A program made the position numbers and the translations under genes. A DNA stretch of 64,000 bases from Exiguobacterium sp. s124. Its GTDB lineage: Bacteria; Bacillota; Bacilli; Exiguobacteriales; Exiguobacteriaceae. The notes under the pieces are model-generated. The model searched no databases. It had not been told where the DNA came from and was given only the letters and a program-made list of their open reading frames with translations. The stretch covers positions 992,001 through 1,056,000 of the forward strand of contig NZ_JACSKH010000001.1 in the NCBI RefSeq assembly GCF_018617485.1. The letters are read 5' to 3'. Below, piece after piece: positions 13,974 through 28,837 of the stretch (within the stretch, counting starts at the first letter, position 1; every line of letters starts with the position of its first letter).

Positions 13974-14540
13974 ATGGTATCAGTTAACGATTTAAAAACA
14001 GGATTGACAGTCAAAACGTCTGACGGTTCGATTTGGCAAGTCATCGAGTTCCAACACGTAAAACCAGGTAAAGGTGCGGCATTCGTACGTACGAAAATGC
14101 GTAACTTGCGCAACGGAGCGATTCAAGAGACGACGTTCCGTGGTGGAGAGAAAATCGAACGTGCGCATATCGAACGTAAGCGTATGCAATACCTCTATCC
14201 AATGGGTGACACATATGTCTTCATGGATAATGAATCGTACGAGCAACTTGAGTTGACGAGCGAACAAGTGAAAGCAGCGCTTCCTTACTTGCTCGAAAAC
14301 ATGGAAGTTAGCATCGCAGACTACAATGGCGAGATTCTTGGAATCGAGCTTCCGACAAGCGTCGTGTTAACAATTATCGAAGCAGACCCGGGCGTCAAAG
14401 GGGACACAGCATCGAACGTGAAGAAAAACGCGACAGTCGAAACAGGACATGTCATTCAAGTACCACTTTTCATCGAGCCAGGTGAAAAAGTGACAGTCGA
14501 TACACGTACTGGAGAATTCATGGGTCGTTACAACGGTTAA
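13974..14540 (+). CDS. efp: Translation elongation factor P
   Basis: EF-P rescues ribosomes stalled at polyproline. The three domains are complete (KOW-like, OB and C-terminal OB). The modifiable lysine lies in KPGKGAAF (Lys 33). The C-terminal signature [14 protein letters not shown] is intact. Length 188 aa, close to the usual 185. AGGAGGAAATCAAC precedes the ATG. In sporulating Bacillus the spoIIIA operon follows; here accB follows after a terminator. Confidence 0.96.
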
Positions 14541-14547
14541 TCAGGCA

Positions 14548-14583
14548 GAGTGTTCATTCGAATGAATGAGCGCTCTTTTTTTC
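14548..14583 (+). terminator. Terminator of efp
   Basis: The stem GTTCATTC/GAATGAAT, with further GAGTG/CGCTC pairing, is followed by T-rich sequence. Confidence 0.7.
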
Positions 14584-14586
14584 TCG

Positions 14587-14642
14587 TTGCATTCATTGGT
14601 CTGACCAGTTATAGTGAAGAGGAGATTAGTACCAGGTATAAA
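14587..14642 (+). promoter_or_regulatory. accBC promoter with FapR-like operator
   Basis: The -35 TTGCAT (14587-14592), 17-bp spacer and -10 TATAGT (14610-14615) make a strong sigma-A promoter, start near 14622. Immediately downstream lies TTAGTACCAGGTATAAA (14626-14642), which closely resembles the FapR dyad TTAGTACC-N-GGTACTAA (left half exact, right half 6 of 8). Binding there would block early elongation. Confidence 0.6.
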
Positions 14643-14657
14643 CAGGGGGTAAGAAAG

Positions 14658-15107
14658 ATGCAAATCGATCAAATTAAAGAGCTCATTCAACTGTTGGACC
14701 AGTCTTCGGTCCATGAAATGGAGCTTGAAACATCTGATTTCAAACTGTCATTAAAGAAAGAAGCGCAAGCGGTCATGAGCGCGCCAGTGATGCAGACACA
14801 AGCAATCGCACCACCTGCGCCTGCTCCTCAAGTAGAAGAAAACACAGAACAATCGGCGCCAGAAAAAGCGTCTTATCGTACAATCACGTCTCCGATGGTC
14901 GGAACATTTTACTCACGTCCAGCTCCGGATAAGGAAGCCTTCGTCAACGTAGGTGATCGAGTGGAGTCGGGGCAAATCGTCTGTATTTTAGAGGCGATGA
15001 AACTGTTTAACGATGTGGAAGCGGAAATCAGTGGCGAAATCGTCGAAGTGCTCGTCGCCGATGGCGATCTCGTCGAATTCGGTCAACCGCTCTTCAGCGT
15101 GAAGTGA
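14658..15107 (+). CDS. accB: Acetyl-CoA carboxylase biotin carboxyl carrier protein
   Basis: A 149-aa carrier whose biotinylated lysine is in EAMKLFND (about Lys 115). An Ala/Pro-rich linker (residues about 40-70) separates it from the N-terminal segment. The thumb region [14 protein letters not shown] is present. It carries CO2 from AccC to the carboxyltransferase to make malonyl-CoA. ATG 14658 is behind AGGGGGTAAGAAAG; the frame upstream is leader. It is followed after 7 bp by accC. Confidence 0.95.
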
Positions 15108-23146: not shown

Positions 23147-23201
23147 GATTGTAGAAGAAGAGATGGAGAATGGTGGAAATCACCTCTGGAATGCTAGACC
23201 T

Positions 23202-23229
23202 TTTTTCGACAATACTTTAGAATGATAAT
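23202..23229 (+). promoter_or_regulatory. Candidate Spo0A box before argR-recN-spo0A
   Basis: TTTTTCGACAAT (23202-23213) is the reverse of ATTGTCGAAAAA, one mismatch from the 0A box TTTGTCGAAAAA. A -10-like GATAAT lies at 23224-23229, with the box covering the region upstream, including a poor -35 (TTTTTT). This fits a Spo0A-controlled promoter for the operon that carries spo0A. Confidence 0.45.
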
Positions 23230-23264
23230 GTGTATGTGAAACGAAGAATGAGGTGTCAGCGCTT

Positions 23265-23714
23265 ATGAATAAAGGACAGCGATTGATTAAAATTCGAGAC
23301 ATCGTGACGAATCGTGAAATCGAAACGCAAGATGAACTAGTAGACGAGCTTCGTCGTTTAGGGTATCCCGTCACACAGGCTACTGTATCTCGGGATATTA
23401 AAGAGTTACATTTGGTCAAAGTACCTTTGAACGATGGGCGATACAAATACAGCTTGCCTGCGGATCAGCGCTTTAACCCATACGGTAAAATGAAGCGCAT
23501 CCTCAGTGACAGTTTCGTCTCAGTCGATTCAGCTCAAAACTTGGTCGTCATGAAAGTGTTACCTGGTAATGCGGATGCGATTGGTGTCTTGATTGATCAT
23601 CTATCATGGGATGAATTGATTGGAACGGTTTGTGGAGATGACACGATTCTCATGATTGCTCGCGATGAGGACAAAGCGAAGCAGATCATTGATCGACTAC
23701 TCGGAATGTTATGA
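23265..23714 (+). CDS. argR: Arginine repressor ArgR/AhrC
   Basis: A 149-aa regulator of arginine synthesis and catabolism. The winged-helix N-domain has [26 protein letters not shown] and [16 protein letters not shown]. The hexamer/arginine-binding C-domain has [14 protein letters not shown] and [16 protein letters not shown] with paired Asp. ATG 23265 fits the family length and is behind AGGTG, with a 9-nt spacer. It is upstream of recN and spo0A with short gaps. The artPQR-like transporter at 40.7 kb is a possible target. Confidence 0.94.
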
Positions 23715-23727
23715 GGTGAAAGTACGT

Positions 23728-25425
23728 ATGTTAGCAGAACTATCAATCAAACAGTTTGCGATTATCGACGAATTAAACATTCCGTTTAATCGGGGCATGA
23801 CCGTTCTTACAGGTGAGACGGGTGCAGGTAAATCGATTTTGTTAGATGCGATTGGGTTGCTTGTTGGAGGACGTGGGTCGAGTGAGTTCGTTCGTTATGG
23901 TCAGGATAAGGCCGAAATCGAAGGGATGTTCATGGTGGAATCGGATCATCCGGTGATTGAGGCGGCTGAACAATACGGCATCGAAATCGAAGATGGGACA
24001 GTCATTTTGCGCCGAGACTTACATAGTAGCGGGAAAAGTGTCTGTCGTGTGAATGGGAAGATGATGCCACTCTCGACGTTGAGAGAATTCGGACGACTTC
24101 TCGTGGATATTCATGGACAGCATGAACACCAACACTTGATGGACTCAGAATTTCACTTAGGCATTCTCGACCATTTTGCCGAAAAAGAAGTCGGGCCACT
24201 ATTAGAGGAGTATCAGACAGCTTATGCAGCCTGGAAACAAGTCGCAGATGAACTGAAACGACTCAGTCAAAGTGAACAAGAGCTCGCGCAACGAATGGAT
24301 TTGTTATCGTTCCAAACGAAAGAAATTGAGGCGGCTGAGTTAAAAGCAGGGGAAGAACAGGCGCTGACAGAAGAACGTGATGAACTGGCTAACTTCGAAC
24401 GGATTCATCAACATATTCGTCTGTCTTATGAGGCAGTCGCGGAAGAGTCGAATGGGCTTGACCATATCGGGGTCGCGATGCGTGAAATGGAAGAAGCATC
24501 TCAATTATCCTCATCCCTCGCATCTGTATCAGAAACGATTTCAAATGCTTATTATTTACTCGAAGATGCGAAGTTTCAGTTGCGTGATCAACTAGACTCA
24601 CTCGAGTTCGATCCAATTCGTTTAGATGAAATCGAGTCGCGTCTGGCATTGTTCCAACAGTTAAAACGAAAATATGGAACGACAATTGAAGAAGTCATCG
24701 CTTATGGAGAGCAAGTATCTGACGAGTTGAAGTCGATGACGAATCGAGAGGAACTTCTTCAAACTTTGTCAGAGGATCTCGTCCGATTAGAAAAAGTTGC
24801 AAAAGAGGCGGGTACAAGACTGTCCGCGGCTCGTAAAGAGGCGGCCGAGTCTCTTCAACATGCCATCCACCGAGAGCTAAAAGAACTGTATATGGAAAAA
24901 ACGGCGTTTGAAGTTCGATTCCGAACGACGACACTAAAACAAGACGGTCTTGACGACGTCGAATTTTATATGATGACGAACGTCGGAGAACCTTTCAAAC
25001 CACTGGCGAAAGTGGCTTCAGGTGGAGAACTTTCCCGGGTCATGTTAGCCCTTAAGTCAATTTTTTCCCGAACGGTTGGTGTCGCATCGATTATCTTTGA
25101 TGAGGTTGATACAGGAGTATCTGGACGCGTCGCCCAAGCGATGGGAGAAAAAATCTTCCGTTTGTCTGTCGGTTCACAAGTACTGTGTATCACGCATTTG
25201 GCACAAGTCGCTGCGATGGCGGATCAACATCTTTACATCACCAAGACGGAGACGAATGATCGGACGAAGACGAATGTTGCCACTCTCGACCGAGAGAGCC
25301 GAATTGACGAGCTCGGCCGAATGATCGCAGGTATACAAATGACCGACTTGACGAAGCAACATGTGGAAGAGTTGCTCGAAATGTCACAGCAAGTAAAACA
25401 GAAGTTCATCAAAGGAGTGTCATAA
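23728..25425 (+). CDS. recN: DNA repair ATPase RecN
   Basis: A 565-aa SMC-like protein of double-strand break repair. Walker A TGETGAGKSILLDAI is near the N-terminus (about residues 30-42). Long coiled-coil arms (about 165-345) follow, and the C-terminal signature ASGGELSRVMLALK and Walker B IIFDEVDTGVSGRVAQAMG with CITHLAQVAA complete the ATPase head. GAGGTGAAAGTACGT precedes ATG 23728. In spore formers spoIVB lies between recN and spo0A; here spo0A starts at the base after the recN stop. Confidence 0.95.
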   Translation: MLAELSIKQFAIIDELNIPFNRGMTVLTGETGAGKSILLDAIGLLVGGRGSSEFVRYGQDKAEIEGMFMVESDHPVIEAAEQYGIEIEDGTVILRRDLHSSGKSVCRVNGKMMPLSTLREFGRLLVDIHGQHEHQHLMDSEFHLGILDHFAEKEVGPLLEEYQTAYAAWKQVADELKRLSQSEQELAQRMDLLSFQTKEIEAAELKAGEEQALTEERDELANFERIHQHIRLSYEAVAEESNGLDHIGVAMREMEEASQLSSSLASVSETISNAYYLLEDAKFQLRDQLDSLEFDPIRLDEIESRLALFQQLKRKYGTTIEEVIAYGEQVSDELKSMTNREELLQTLSEDLVRLEKVAKEAGTRLSAARKEAAESLQHAIHRELKELYMEKTAFEVRFRTTTLKQDGLDDVEFYMMTNVGEPFKPLAKVASGGELSRVMLALKSIFSRTVGVASIIFDEVDTGVSGRVAQAMGEKIFRLSVGSQVLCITHLAQVAAMADQHLYITKTETNDRTKTNVATLDRESRIDELGRMIAGIQMTDLTKQHVEELLEMSQQVKQKFIKGVS

Positions 25426-26157
25426 GTGATTACATTATGTATTGCGGACGACAATCGAGAAATCGTCGATTTGTTGAGCCGACAACTAGAATCTGAGCCT
25501 GATCTCCGTGTCGTTGGAACAGCGCACGATGGTGAAGCATGCTTGGATGTCGTCAAGGCACACCAACCGGATGTACTCTTACTCGACATAATCATGCCTC
25601 ATTTGGATGGAATCGGAGTCTTGCAACGTCTACATGAAGAACTCGGTGATGATAAGCCGGAAGTGATCATGTTGAGTGCATTTGGAAAAGATGAAGTGAC
25701 GAAACAAGCGGTTCAATTAGGTGCCTCTTACTTTCTCGTCAAACCATTCAATATTCAACAATTGTTAACGAAAATTCGTGAACTGTCGGACGGTGCTAAT
25801 CGCGAGTTTGAAGGAATGTCTCCAGATGAAATTGAAATTTCGCTCTTGCTCCAACAACTTGGGATCTCTCCTCGAATCAAAGGATTCAAATATATCCGCC
25901 AAGCCGTCATCTATGTGCGCGAGCGTCAAGATTTGCTTGGATTGATCACCAAGGAATTATATCCGATGGTGGCAAAAGAGCATGATACGACTTCATCACG
26001 TGTGGAACGGGCGATGCGTCACGCGATCAAGACAGCATGGGAGAATGGAATGCGCGACCATGAGATGTTTGAAGGGCGACCTGAGCGTGAACGTAGTCCA
26101 AAGAACTCGGAGTTCATTTCATATTTCGTCACGTACTTGTCGTTTAAAAGTAATTGA
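25426..26157 (+). CDS. spo0A: Response regulator Spo0A
   Basis: A 243-aa receiver plus Spo0A C-terminal DNA-binding domain. The acidic pocket (ADDN) and phospho-Asp 54 (LLLDIIMPHLDG), plus Lys 106 (LVKPF), are intact. The DNA-binding part keeps GFKYIRQAVIYV, LYPMVAKEHDTTSSRVERAMRHAIKTAW, almost the same recognition helix as B. subtilis, so 0A-box specificity should be kept. It is about 24 aa shorter than the B. subtilis protein. It starts at GTG 25426 behind AAAGGAGTGTCATAA. An intact Spo0A beside missing spoIVB suggests a non-sporulation role such as biofilm or competence control. Confidence 0.93.
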   Translation: MITLCIADDNREIVDLLSRQLESEPDLRVVGTAHDGEACLDVVKAHQPDVLLLDIIMPHLDGIGVLQRLHEELGDDKPEVIMLSAFGKDEVTKQAVQLGASYFLVKPFNIQQLLTKIRELSDGANREFEGMSPDEIEISLLLQQLGISPRIKGFKYIRQAVIYVRERQDLLGLITKELYPMVAKEHDTTSSRVERAMRHAIKTAWENGMRDHEMFEGRPERERSPKNSEFISYFVTYLSFKSN

Positions 26158-26169
26158 ATCTTTAAAGGT

Positions 26170-26205
26170 GGACTAAGTCATCAAATGACTTAGTCCTTTT
26201 TTTAA
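26170..26205 (+). terminator. Terminator of argR-recN-spo0A
   Basis: A 12-bp perfect stem GGACTAAGTCAT/ATGACTTAGTCC with a 3-nt loop is followed by T7. Confidence 0.95.
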
Positions 26206-26238
26206 AATAATCAATAAAAAATTTTATTTACTTTATGA

Positions 26239-26276
26239 AAGAAAGCGCTTGCAAAACCGTCGTACTTTGTTATAAT
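26239..26276 (+). promoter_or_regulatory. Sigma-A promoter of the large RNA, overlapped by a cre-like site
   Basis: The -35 TTGCAA (26249-26254), 16-bp spacer and -10 TATAAT (26271-26276) predict a start near 26283. AAGAAAGCGCTTGCAAA (26239-26255) matches the CcpA cre consensus WTGNNANCGNNNNCAWW with one mismatch and covers the -35, so catabolite repression is plausible. Confidence 0.7.
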
Positions 26277-26282
26277 AAAGGT

Positions 26283-26809
26283 GTACCAAGTTACTTGGAC
26301 AAGCGTCAGATGAACGCTTTTCAAACTTGTTCCGGAGCAATGTTTGAAGAAACAAAATCATCTCGGTTCGCTATCCGACAATAGCTCAGAGGTGGGAACG
26401 ACATCTCAAGTCGTCAATGTCCCGACGTGAGGTCGCGACAGTCGCTCATTTGCGAGACGATTCTATCATCAACTCGAAGCTAGGGGTTGATATAGGAAAA
26501 ACAAATCGTTCAGTTAACCAAAAGGAGTGTTGTCAACCGTTGAACAGTTTATGGCAAGCGTTCGACTTCACGATGGATGGTTGGACATGATCCGATAATA
26601 AAAAATGTTAGTAACTCGAATGGAAATGTTCCGTTCACGCAAGACGGCAGTTACTAAAGTTCTTTCATACTTCTTCATTAAGAAGACATTGGATATCGTG
26701 TCAAAGGAAGTAAAGCAGTTGGAAAGGAGATCATCCGTAGTGATCACAATTCAATACGAATAAAAGGTTCCGCACTTGAAATGAAGTCAAGTTAGGGAAC
26801 CTTTTTTTT
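26283..26809 (+). ncRNA. Large structured noncoding RNA (about 527 nt); possibly OLE-class
   Basis: No long ORF occupies this gap between spo0A and the DUF2627 gene, yet it has its own strong promoter and terminator. Many local stems are visible: CCAAG/CTTGG (26286-26298), AAGCGT/ACGCTT (26301-26319), CAAACTTG with CAA-T-GTTTG (26322-26346), GGGAACGAC with GTCGT...TCCC (26394-26423), ATCAAC/GTTGAT (26467-26490 region), a 9-bp TTAGTAACT/AGTTACTAA (26608-26616 with 26649-26657), CTTCTT/AAGAAG and GATCA/TGATC. Size, density of structure and the ispA-dxs-recN neighbourhood recall OLE RNA, but no oapA partner is seen nearby and I could not run a covariance search. It may instead be a new class. 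Two tiny ORFs with SD-like sequences lie inside. Confidence 0.72.
26763..26809 (+). terminator. Terminator of the large RNA
   Basis: The stem AAAGGTTCC/GGAACCTTT encloses a second stem ACTTGA/TCAAGT and is followed by T8. The reverse strand also has GGAACCTTTTATT, so it may serve the convergent DUF2627 gene as well. Confidence 0.92.
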
Positions 26810-26815
26810 GTGTGC

Positions 26816-27064: not shown

Positions 27065-27199
27065 GCAATCTCCTCCTTTACCATACATTATTTTAACAGA
27101 AATCTGTTCATTCCACACTGTCTATTTTTAGGCGGCTTGCGCATCATGGTGGGATTCAGTAGCATGAAGAAGAGAAGAGTGAAAGATGGGGGAATTCGT

Positions 27200-28837
27200 A
27201 TGAATAAACGATTGATGATTGTCGGTGCGGGCAAAGGAGGGACGGAAGTCTTGAACATGTTGATGGACTCCCCGCTCGCGACGATCGTTGCGGTCGTCGA
27301 CTCCGATGCATCGGCTGAAGGGATTGCCCTCGCCAAAAGTTATGGCATCGCCGTGACGGACGATTGGACGAAATATGCAGAGGTAGCATTAGACTTTGTT
27401 ATTGAGACGACAGGGCAGCATCAAACGTTCGAAGAGTTGAAAGATCATTACAAAGATGCGGTTGTGTTGCCGGGAGAATTTATTCGAATCGTTGTCGAGC
27501 GATTGAAACAAAATCAACAGATGCTTGAAGCAATCATCGAATGTACGAGTGAGGCGATCTCGGTAGCCGATCATCACGGCAATACGATATTGATCAATCC
27601 GTCATATACCCGGTTGACGGGATTTAAAAAAGAGGACGTCGTTGATAAGCCTGCCACGGCCGATATCGGTATGCAGGAGAGTGTGCATCTGAAAGTTCTA
27701 TCGACGGGTCAAGGTGTCCGAGATATTCGGATGCAAATCGGGGCGACGCGACGTGACATACTTGTGAATGCAGAACCGATCATCGTAGAGGGGAAATTGA
27801 GAGGTTCGGTCGGCGTCATCCGTGATGTGTCTCAAATCCGTGCACTTCGTGATGAATTGCAAGAAGCGAAAACACGTATTCGAAATTTAGAAGCTAAATA
27901 TCAATTTGCTGATATTATCGCAACGAGTGATACGATGCGATTTGTCATCGATCAAGCAAAATTGGCAGCGGTGACACCAGTTACGGTATTGATTCGTGGA
28001 GAATCGGGAACAGGAAAAGAACTGTTTGCCCACGCTATCCACGGAGAATCTCCACGAAAATTTAAAAAGTTCATCCGAGTAAATTGTGCGGCCATCTCGC
28101 CTACGCTTCTCGAAAGTGAATTGTTCGGTTATGAAGATGGTGCATTTAGTGGTGCAAAGCGTGGTGGGAAGACAGGTTACTTCGAGGAGGCGGATGGTGG
28201 ATCGCTCTTTTTGGACGAAATCGGAGAATTGCCACTCGATGTCCAAGTAAAACTCCTTCGTGTCCTTCAAGAAAATGAGATTGTGCGAGTCGGGGGGACG
28301 ACGGCGATTCCAATTGATGTCCGCATCATAGCCGCAACGAATGCGGATCTTGAACAAAAAGTGGCGGACGGAACATTTCGTGAAGATTTATACTATCGAA
28401 TCAACCGGATGCCCATCCATATCCCGCCACTTCGAGAACGGTTGAATGAACTCGAAGCACTCTGTGACCGCATCGTTCGAAAGTTGAATCAAGAGTATGG
28501 CCGAAGTGTACAAGGGGTAGATGAAGATGCGTTGACTCTGTTGAAAAGTCAGCATTGGAAGGGGAATGTCCGCGAACTTGAAAATGTGATTGGTCGCGCA
28601 ATGATTTATATGGCGAACACGGAACAACAGATTGCTCCACATCACTTACAATTATCACCTCGTACGCCGAGCCAGAAAGTCGTCGAGTCTGGAACACTTC
28701 ATGAAGCCGTGGCGAAATATGAACGTGATTTGATTGAACGGACGATTGAAGAAGCCGGTGGGAATAAGTCAGAAGCTGCCCGGCGGTTAAAAATTTCAAT
28801 CCGGACTTTATATAATAAATTAGACACCATGCAATAA
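27200..28837 (+). CDS. bkdR: BkdR-type enhancer-binding regulator of branched-chain amino acid catabolism
   Basis: A 545-aa activator. The N-terminal Rossmann-like segment (LMIVGAGKGGTEVL, about 5-18) is followed by PAS (about 105-215), AAA+ (about 235-470; Walker A GESGTGKE at 267-274, Walker B GGSLFLDEIGEL) and a Fis-type HTH (GGNKSEAARRLKISIRTLYNKL) at the C-terminus. The sigma-54 contact loop reads GAFSGA (314-319) rather than GAFTGA. ATG 27200 is behind GATGGGGGAATTC. The gene precedes ptb-bcd-buk-lpdV-bkdAA-bkdAB-bkdB, its expected target. No clear -12/-24 promoter lies before ptb. Confidence 0.9.
   Translation: MNKRLMIVGAGKGGTEVLNMLMDSPLATIVAVVDSDASAEGIALAKSYGIAVTDDWTKYAEVALDFVIETTGQHQTFEELKDHYKDAVVLPGEFIRIVVERLKQNQQMLEAIIECTSEAISVADHHGNTILINPSYTRLTGFKKEDVVDKPATADIGMQESVHLKVLSTGQGVRDIRMQIGATRRDILVNAEPIIVEGKLRGSVGVIRDVSQIRALRDELQEAKTRIRNLEAKYQFADIIATSDTMRFVIDQAKLAAVTPVTVLIRGESGTGKELFAHAIHGESPRKFKKFIRVNCAAISPTLLESELFGYEDGAFSGAKRGGKTGYFEEADGGSLFLDEIGELPLDVQVKLLRVLQENEIVRVGGTTAIPIDVRIIAATNADLEQKVADGTFREDLYYRINRMPIHIPPLRERLNELEALCDRIVRKLNQEYGRSVQGVDEDALTLLKSQHWKGNVRELENVIGRAMIYMANTEQQIAPHHLQLSPRTPSQKVVESGTLHEAVAKYERDLIERTIEEAGGNKSEAARRLKISIRTLYNKLDTMQ

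Follow-up and report, generated by a model that had tools for sequence, protein, structure and literature searches.

The spo0A locus of Exiguobacterium raises the question why the master regulator of sporulation should survive in a lineage that does not sporulate. We addressed it with a stretch of 64,000 nucleotides from Exiguobacterium sp. s124, here called the window, which lies on contig C1 of a 2.8-Mb genome, and compared it across 37 genomes of the family, 19 of them in one genus (g1) and 18 in a second (g2), as well as with other members of the class. The nearest named relatives of its Spo0A are those of E. aestuarii (98% identity) and E. profundum (95%).

A tight junction between recN and spo0A

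The genes of the window that matter here are the following:

13974..14540, + strand: 188-aa open reading frame immediately 5′ of accB, which from its sequence we take to be efp
14658..15107, + strand: accB (TIGR00531, 162.9 bits over residues 37-185 of the open reading frame 14550-15107; start near 14658)
23253..23714, + strand: 153-aa open reading frame, going by its sequence presumably argR; orthologue in the same order in 37 family stretches
23728..25425, + strand: recN (TIGR00634, 604.9 bits), its stop codon abutting the spo0A start
25426..26157, + strand: spo0A, GTG start, 243 aa, matched over its full length by TIGR02875 (257.6 bits, cut-off 200); PF08769
26170..26203, + strand: terminator-like hairpin and T-run 3′ of spo0A, read from the sequence
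27197..28837, + strand: next gene on this strand, a sigma-54-dependent regulator, by synteny presumably bkdR; flanking marker only

The initial annotation had pointed out that efp is followed directly by accB and recN directly by spo0A, and the window as well as the family stretches bear this out. No spoIIIAA-AH genes lie between efp and accB in the window, and the distance from the end of efp to the start of accC is 567-651 nt in all family stretches that could be read here (34/37). At the second junction, recN ends at position 25425, the gap to spo0A is 0 nt and spoIVB is missing from between them. The gene has its orthologous place after recN in all 37 family stretches (one of them, that of G032, with an insertion element in spo0A), and the gap measures 0 nt throughout g1 (19/19 genomes). 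In g2 it is 3 nt for 17 of the 18 genomes, the exception being G032 with its insertion. For the 19 comparator stretches that carry both genes, the corresponding values are 1388-2022 nt (17 stretches), 7734 nt (one) and 341 nt (G038). The tight junction, which recurs across g1 and g2 genomes, is neither due to chance nor a local assembly artefact.

Two other junctions that are otherwise tight hold an extra 1.6-1.8 kb, probably insertions: accC-nusB in L054 (G006) and tlyA-argR in L055 (G007). Searches of the window for Rfam families and for tRNAs gave no match. The spo0A terminator is separated from a small membrane gene on the minus strand by about 0.6 kb of sequence (26204-26815), likewise without an Rfam match, that contains the promoter-like TTGTTATAAT and what we take to be a cre-like motif.

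SpoIVB and SpoIIIAE are missing throughout the family

The absence of SpoIVB and SpoIIIAE is genome-wide and family-wide. The profiles for SpoIVB (PF05580) and SpoIIIAE (PF09546) each found a match in 0/37 family genomes, nor in particular in the genome of the window, as opposed to 21/24 other genomes of the class, and the three of these that lack the one also lack the other (G038, G040 and G045). Nine Sigma70_r2 matches are present in the window's genome; the best six are SigA, SigW, SigB, one ECF factor, SigH and a SigD-type factor, and SigE, SigF, SigG and SigK were not recognised among these six. The sequence data support a loss of sporulation in the Exiguobacterium lineage with both insertions cleanly missing, in line with the clean deletion that the initial annotation had proposed, and SpoIVB and SpoIIIAE did not turn up elsewhere in the genome.

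That Exiguobacterium has Spo0A without these sporulation genes was already published in 2008 and 2012. The earlier study found spo0A "unexpected" in E. sibiricum, also noted kinA, kinB, spo0B and a Spo0F-like protein, and concluded from the missing spoIIA and spoIIG that the organism is most likely non-sporulating (PMC2615787). Table 5 of the later one lists two Exiguobacterium strains as Spo0A-positive and lacking, among others, sigE, sigF, sigG, sigK, spoIIE, the spoIIIA operon and spoIVB, and the same table has Bacillus selenitireducens and Macrococcus caseolyticus beside them as Spo0A-positive (PMC3533761).

One might argue that Exiguobacterium does sporulate, using diverged genes that the profiles miss, and the persistence of SigH, AbrB and the relay would fit this. 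However, we regard it as scarcely credible, given that both profiles recognise their targets in most of the same class but nowhere in the family, that the four sporulation sigma factors are missing from the six best matches, and that the genus is described as non-spore-forming (PMC8706201, PMC9781867).

Spo0A is under strong selection

Three parts of the protein have to be distinguished:

25426..25788, + strand: receiver domain, 31/34 class-invariant positions retained
25993..26043, + strand: recognition helix, its base-contacting residues E213, R214, R217 and H218 (B. subtilis numbering) retained in 36/36 proteins read
26044..26154, + strand: rewritten C-terminal segment, corresponding to B. 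subtilis residues ~226-262; shortened by three residues, without GYT and with V in place of A257

The Spo0A_C domain was found by profile search in 37/37 family genomes, and the reading frame is complete in 36 of them. The phosphorylatable D54, which corresponds to D56 of the B. subtilis protein, is retained together with the acidic pair and the conserved Lys in 36/36 proteins read. The initial annotation had called Spo0A intact, with its phospho-Asp, Lys and recognition helix kept. These residues were indeed confirmed, and the word holds for the receiver, the recognition helix and 36 of the 37 genomes, but it fails for the rest of the C-terminal domain, which is heavily altered, and for G032, where the gene is broken.

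Spo0A is at present under strong selection, without relaxation. Its dN/dS (median pairwise, NG86, from sequences of regular length and pairs whose dS lies within 0.05-1.5) is 0.029 for the 19 g1 genomes; the 17 g2 genomes give 0.028. Only efp, argR and accC have lower values among the 13 genes tested in g1, while in g2 the rank of Spo0A is intermediate. Three groups of spore-formers gave 0.022, 0.024 and 0.028, values that rest on few unsaturated pairs (2-16), such that the rate comparison called for by the initial annotation gives no sign of relaxed selection. The C-terminal domain taken separately has a dN/dS of 0.016 in g1, compared with 0.008-0.016 in the three spore-former groups.

Of the 37 family genomes, only G032 (L082, G032:C1:512346-528639) has its spo0A interrupted by an insertion element. 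The element, called IS3-type by eye, sits after about residue 83, between recN and the remainder of the gene, and the strain retains its spo0B-like and spo0E-like genes. Because its spo0A is broken in this way, at least one strain can do without the gene. G032 was left out of the Spo0A residue counts and, by length, of the selection test.

The C-terminal domain has diverged on the stem branch

When the distance between Exiguobacterium and the comparators is divided by that among the comparators, the ratio is 1.83 for Spo0A as a whole, 1.33 for the receiver and 3.64 for the C-terminal domain, whereas eight neighbouring control genes give 0.94-1.23. The recognition helix region, too, is more diverged than in the comparators (ratio 2.68). 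We defined positions as class-invariant if they are the same in at least 19 of 20 comparators, and used the 267-aa G050 protein as the source of B. subtilis numbering. Of these positions, 31/34 in the receiver, 26/48 in residues 150-223, 3/9 in 224-246 and 6/13 in 247-266 are retained by all 36 family proteins that could be read. This pattern would be expected of a shift in function, in which the C-terminal domain underwent a burst of change on the long stem branch and then came under renewed constraint.

The FGYT motif and the residues around it have given way to a charged stretch that is shorter by three residues. FGYT is altered in 36/36 family proteins read and present in 19/20 comparators. 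A257 is altered in 35 of the 36: the residue is V in 19/19 g1 proteins, while 16 g2 proteins have S and one has A, as against A in 20/20 comparators. Among 59 named loci, from which the unreadable L384 and L386 were dropped, FGYT and A257 occur together in 57/57 from outside Exiguobacterium, mostly from spore-former genera; the segment is altered in all 14 named Exiguobacterium sequences. The family thus lacks the FGYT/A257 segment that is typical of spore-formers and by which a sporulation-activating Spo0A would be recognised. Positions 162 and 174 are also altered in Exiguobacterium. Residues 227-240 of B. subtilis Spo0A have reportedly been the subject of classic papers.

G038, a member of the class without SpoIVB and SpoIIIAE, retains both FGYT and A257. 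Hence, loss of sporulation alone is not enough to make the C-terminal domain change.

There is a B. subtilis precedent for such a change, in that replacement of A257 by V or E renders the cells sporulation-deficient but leaves abrB repression unimpaired, and L174F and H162R suppress A257V; Paenibacillus polymyxa with A257V could still sporulate (PMC9195935). The parallel is suggestive but loose, because V is found only in g1 and the suppressor sites 162 and 174 are altered as well.

The models indicate that the Spo0A-type C-terminal fold is kept. The C-terminal domain was modelled separately, as the structure matches of the full-length model were filled by receiver domains; it matched 1fc3_A (Z 18.8, rmsd 2.2, 114 residues aligned) and 1lq1_C (Z 18.4, rmsd 1.8, 108 aligned), and the receiver matched 1qmp_A (Z 22.8, rmsd 1.4, 123 aligned). 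These matches are to be expected, since both models drew on Spo0A relatives.

The phosphorelay components are retained

A search of the window's genome for spo0F and spo0B, as had been suggested, found both at their usual places. Spo0B lies between rpmA and obg and carries an RHEWMN motif. The candidate for Spo0F is a lone receiver of 119 aa that has a DDQ-GIR motif and precedes fbaA, transaldolase and murA, a motif and a gene order that we take to be those of B. subtilis spo0F; no NCBIfam Spo0F model matched it. One SPOB_a protein (PF14689) is present in 37/37 family genomes, the match in G022 (G022:C7:957891-958010) containing one in-frame TAA and scoring below the cut-off. A single SpoOE-like protein is likewise found in 37/37, and none in the class genomes G040 and G045, which lack Spo0A. 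The window's genome furthermore encodes 18 HisKA kinases and 23 receivers, and at least five of the kinases lie distant from any receiver gene (their specificity was judged by eye). By their sequences the components of the phosphorelay are retained, and phosphate would presumably flow through them from such kinases. One orphan histidine kinase gene (L173:10125-12299, minus strand), a candidate for control by Spo0A, has a TTCGACA motif 52 nt upstream (L173:12351, G000 C2).

A slowly decaying Spo0A that persists as a passenger, only through its place in the argR-recN operon, would account for the fusion to recN, the disrupted gene of G032 and the strong divergence of the C-terminal domain on the stem. 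We nevertheless consider this very improbable. It is contradicted by the selection test, in which dN/dS (also that of the C-terminal domain) is near the values of spore-formers, and it sits badly with 36 of 37 complete reading frames, with Spo0B-like and Spo0E-like proteins kept at unlinked loci in every family genome, and with the invariant abrB operator described below.

abrB and the search for other targets

AbrB was searched for in 23 of the 37 family genomes and found in 18/19 g1 and 4/4 g2 genomes. The tandem 0A-box TGTCGAATTTTGACGA is invariant in all 16 columns in the 22 abrB leaders (18 g1, 4 g2), with flanks that vary, and sits just downstream of a TTGACT/TAT promoter. Similar tandem boxes are found upstream of AbrB in G038, G047 and G050. 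For the abrB promoter of B. subtilis a TGTCGAA core has been described (PMC3485338), and a roadblock mechanism for abrB has been mentioned (PMC12090719). abrB is the only direct target for which we find strong evidence in the sequence; it is an ancestral, non-sporulation target, which Spo0A would bind and repress. G002, a 99%-complete genome, gave no AbrB match, although Spo0A, Spo0B-like and Spo0E-like proteins are present.

It is possible, if rather doubtful, that Spo0A is still a full activator, now of a new set of genes, which would be the other programme of the initial annotation, and that its C-terminal change reflects a re-tuned contact with RNA polymerase or a second Spo0A. The strong purifying selection on the domain today would agree with this, as would the excess of TTTGTCGAAA over a reversed control in three g1 genomes (19 versus 9 in G000, 21 versus 4 in G010 and 27 versus 3 in G014). 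However, two g2 genomes show no enrichment (8 versus 9 in G036, 19 versus 15 in G025), and many sites in the window's genome fall within coding sequence. We read 17 of the 19 sites of this genome in context and set them against 26 of the 27 sites of G014, the omitted one appearing to lie within accC. Some sites do recur in the two species, and one of these overlaps a -35-like element that precedes a LytR-type gene. Judged by eye, readings of the recurrent sites include a terminator hairpin, what we take to be a LexA-like box before rarA, and this presumed -35-like element; no conserved new target could be established, and we rejected a new 0A-box regulon.

We also discarded comK as a direct target. 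The family has two ComK genes in 36/37 genomes and three in G009, while ComK is present in only 6/24 other class genomes searched. The leaders of comK in 16 g2 genomes contain no 0A box within 140 nt of the start, and TGTCGAA occurs at -243 in four of them. Exiguobacterium sp. Helios has been reported to carry spo0A, abrB and sigH along with two comK genes and a set of genes for competence (PMC8706201), and in B. subtilis the effect of spo0A on comK is not via AbrB (PMC3297582).

Presumed expression from the argR promoter

B. subtilis has two promoters and four 0A boxes before spo0A (PMC12090719). There is no space for promoters of this type between recN and spo0A in Exiguobacterium. A look for a promoter inside recN gave a synonymous variability of 0.27 in its last 30-codon window, as compared with 0.25-0.47 elsewhere. 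Expression would instead start upstream of argR:

23195..23223, + strand: predicted operon promoter for argR-recN-spo0A (TAGACC-17-TAGAAT), whose spacer holds the 0A box TTCGACA (23205-23211)

A 0A box occurs at the same place in 19/19 g1 genomes (TTCGACA in 18, TTCGTCA in one, a variant that still fits TGNCGAA) versus 1/18 in g2, and any 0A box within 160 nt was found in 2/17 comparators. Since the entire argR promoter is conserved in g1, conservation does not single out the box. It is a candidate for a relocated Spo0A feedback site, limited to one genus, through which Spo0A may regulate its own expression.

What Spo0A may do without sporulation

The reading that we favour, and hold to be reasonably probable, is that sporulation was lost, that Spo0A and its relay were kept, and that Spo0A runs the remaining, AbrB-repressing half of the old programme. 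Complete deletions would have removed the sporulation machinery from the Exiguobacterium lineage and left the decision circuit above it in place. Orphan kinases may pass phosphate via Spo0F and Spo0B to Spo0A, with Spo0E as phosphatase; Spo0A~P would bind the tandem 0A boxes downstream of the abrB promoter and switch abrB off, which in turn would release stationary-phase functions that AbrB presumably represses. Spo0A is thus probably kept to switch off abrB when growth slows. The initial annotation had Spo0A running another programme, which as worded finds no support, as the only strong target is ancestral and the relay above it has been retained.

Because no spoIIA, spoIIE and spoIIG promoters are left, the part of the C-terminal domain that serves activation in B. 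subtilis would have been free to change on the stem branch before it became fixed, and the resulting Spo0A may be mostly or only a repressor. Loss of spoIVB together with the B. subtilis-type spo0A promoter region would have fused spo0A to recN and placed it under the argR-recN operon. We infer from the sequence that activation by Spo0A may have been lost, and more tentatively entertain, as a possibility short of probable, a natural separation of function, in which many changes (A257V in one genus) removed the activating half and kept the abrB-repressing half, and autoregulation moved to the argR-recN-spo0A promoter. In the part of the literature surveyed here we found no account of the C-terminal change or of the abrB operator in Exiguobacterium, though other papers may have one. 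Both details, the altered activating half and the abrB control site that has been preserved, appear to be new.

If correct, the favoured reading explains how a sporulation master regulator survives in a non-sporulating lineage: the ancient job that it kept would be that of the AbrB transition-state switch. Should the activating surface truly be lost, the Spo0A proteins of Exiguobacterium would furthermore offer a natural set for separating repression from activation, and would allow one to ask which functions of Spo0A came first. Exiguobacterium is now reported to be transformable (PMC8706201), such that this reading is open to experimental testing.

Comparison with known systems

Among the closest cases is Spo0A of E. 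sibiricum 255-15 (Exig_0912), from the same genus and in the same situation; the part of that study drawn on here gives no operator, selection or C-domain analysis (PMC2615787). Bacillus selenitireducens and Macrococcus caseolyticus (PMC3533761), as well as G038, likewise retain Spo0A with core sporulation genes gone; unlike Exiguobacterium, G038 has kept the canonical C-terminal segment.

With Spo0A of B. subtilis, that of Exiguobacterium shares the receiver, the recognition helix, the fold, the place after recN, the relay partners and the tandem 0A boxes at abrB. It differs in that spoIVB and the room for spo0A-specific promoters are missing, that the segment ~226-262 is rewritten, and that there are no sporulation promoters to activate. 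The A257V mutant of B. subtilis, which does not sporulate but still represses abrB, resembles Exiguobacterium in combining absence of sporulation with abrB control, and V257 is found throughout g1. Exiguobacterium, however, carries many changes, including those at the suppressor sites 162 and 174, and g2 has S or A at position 257.
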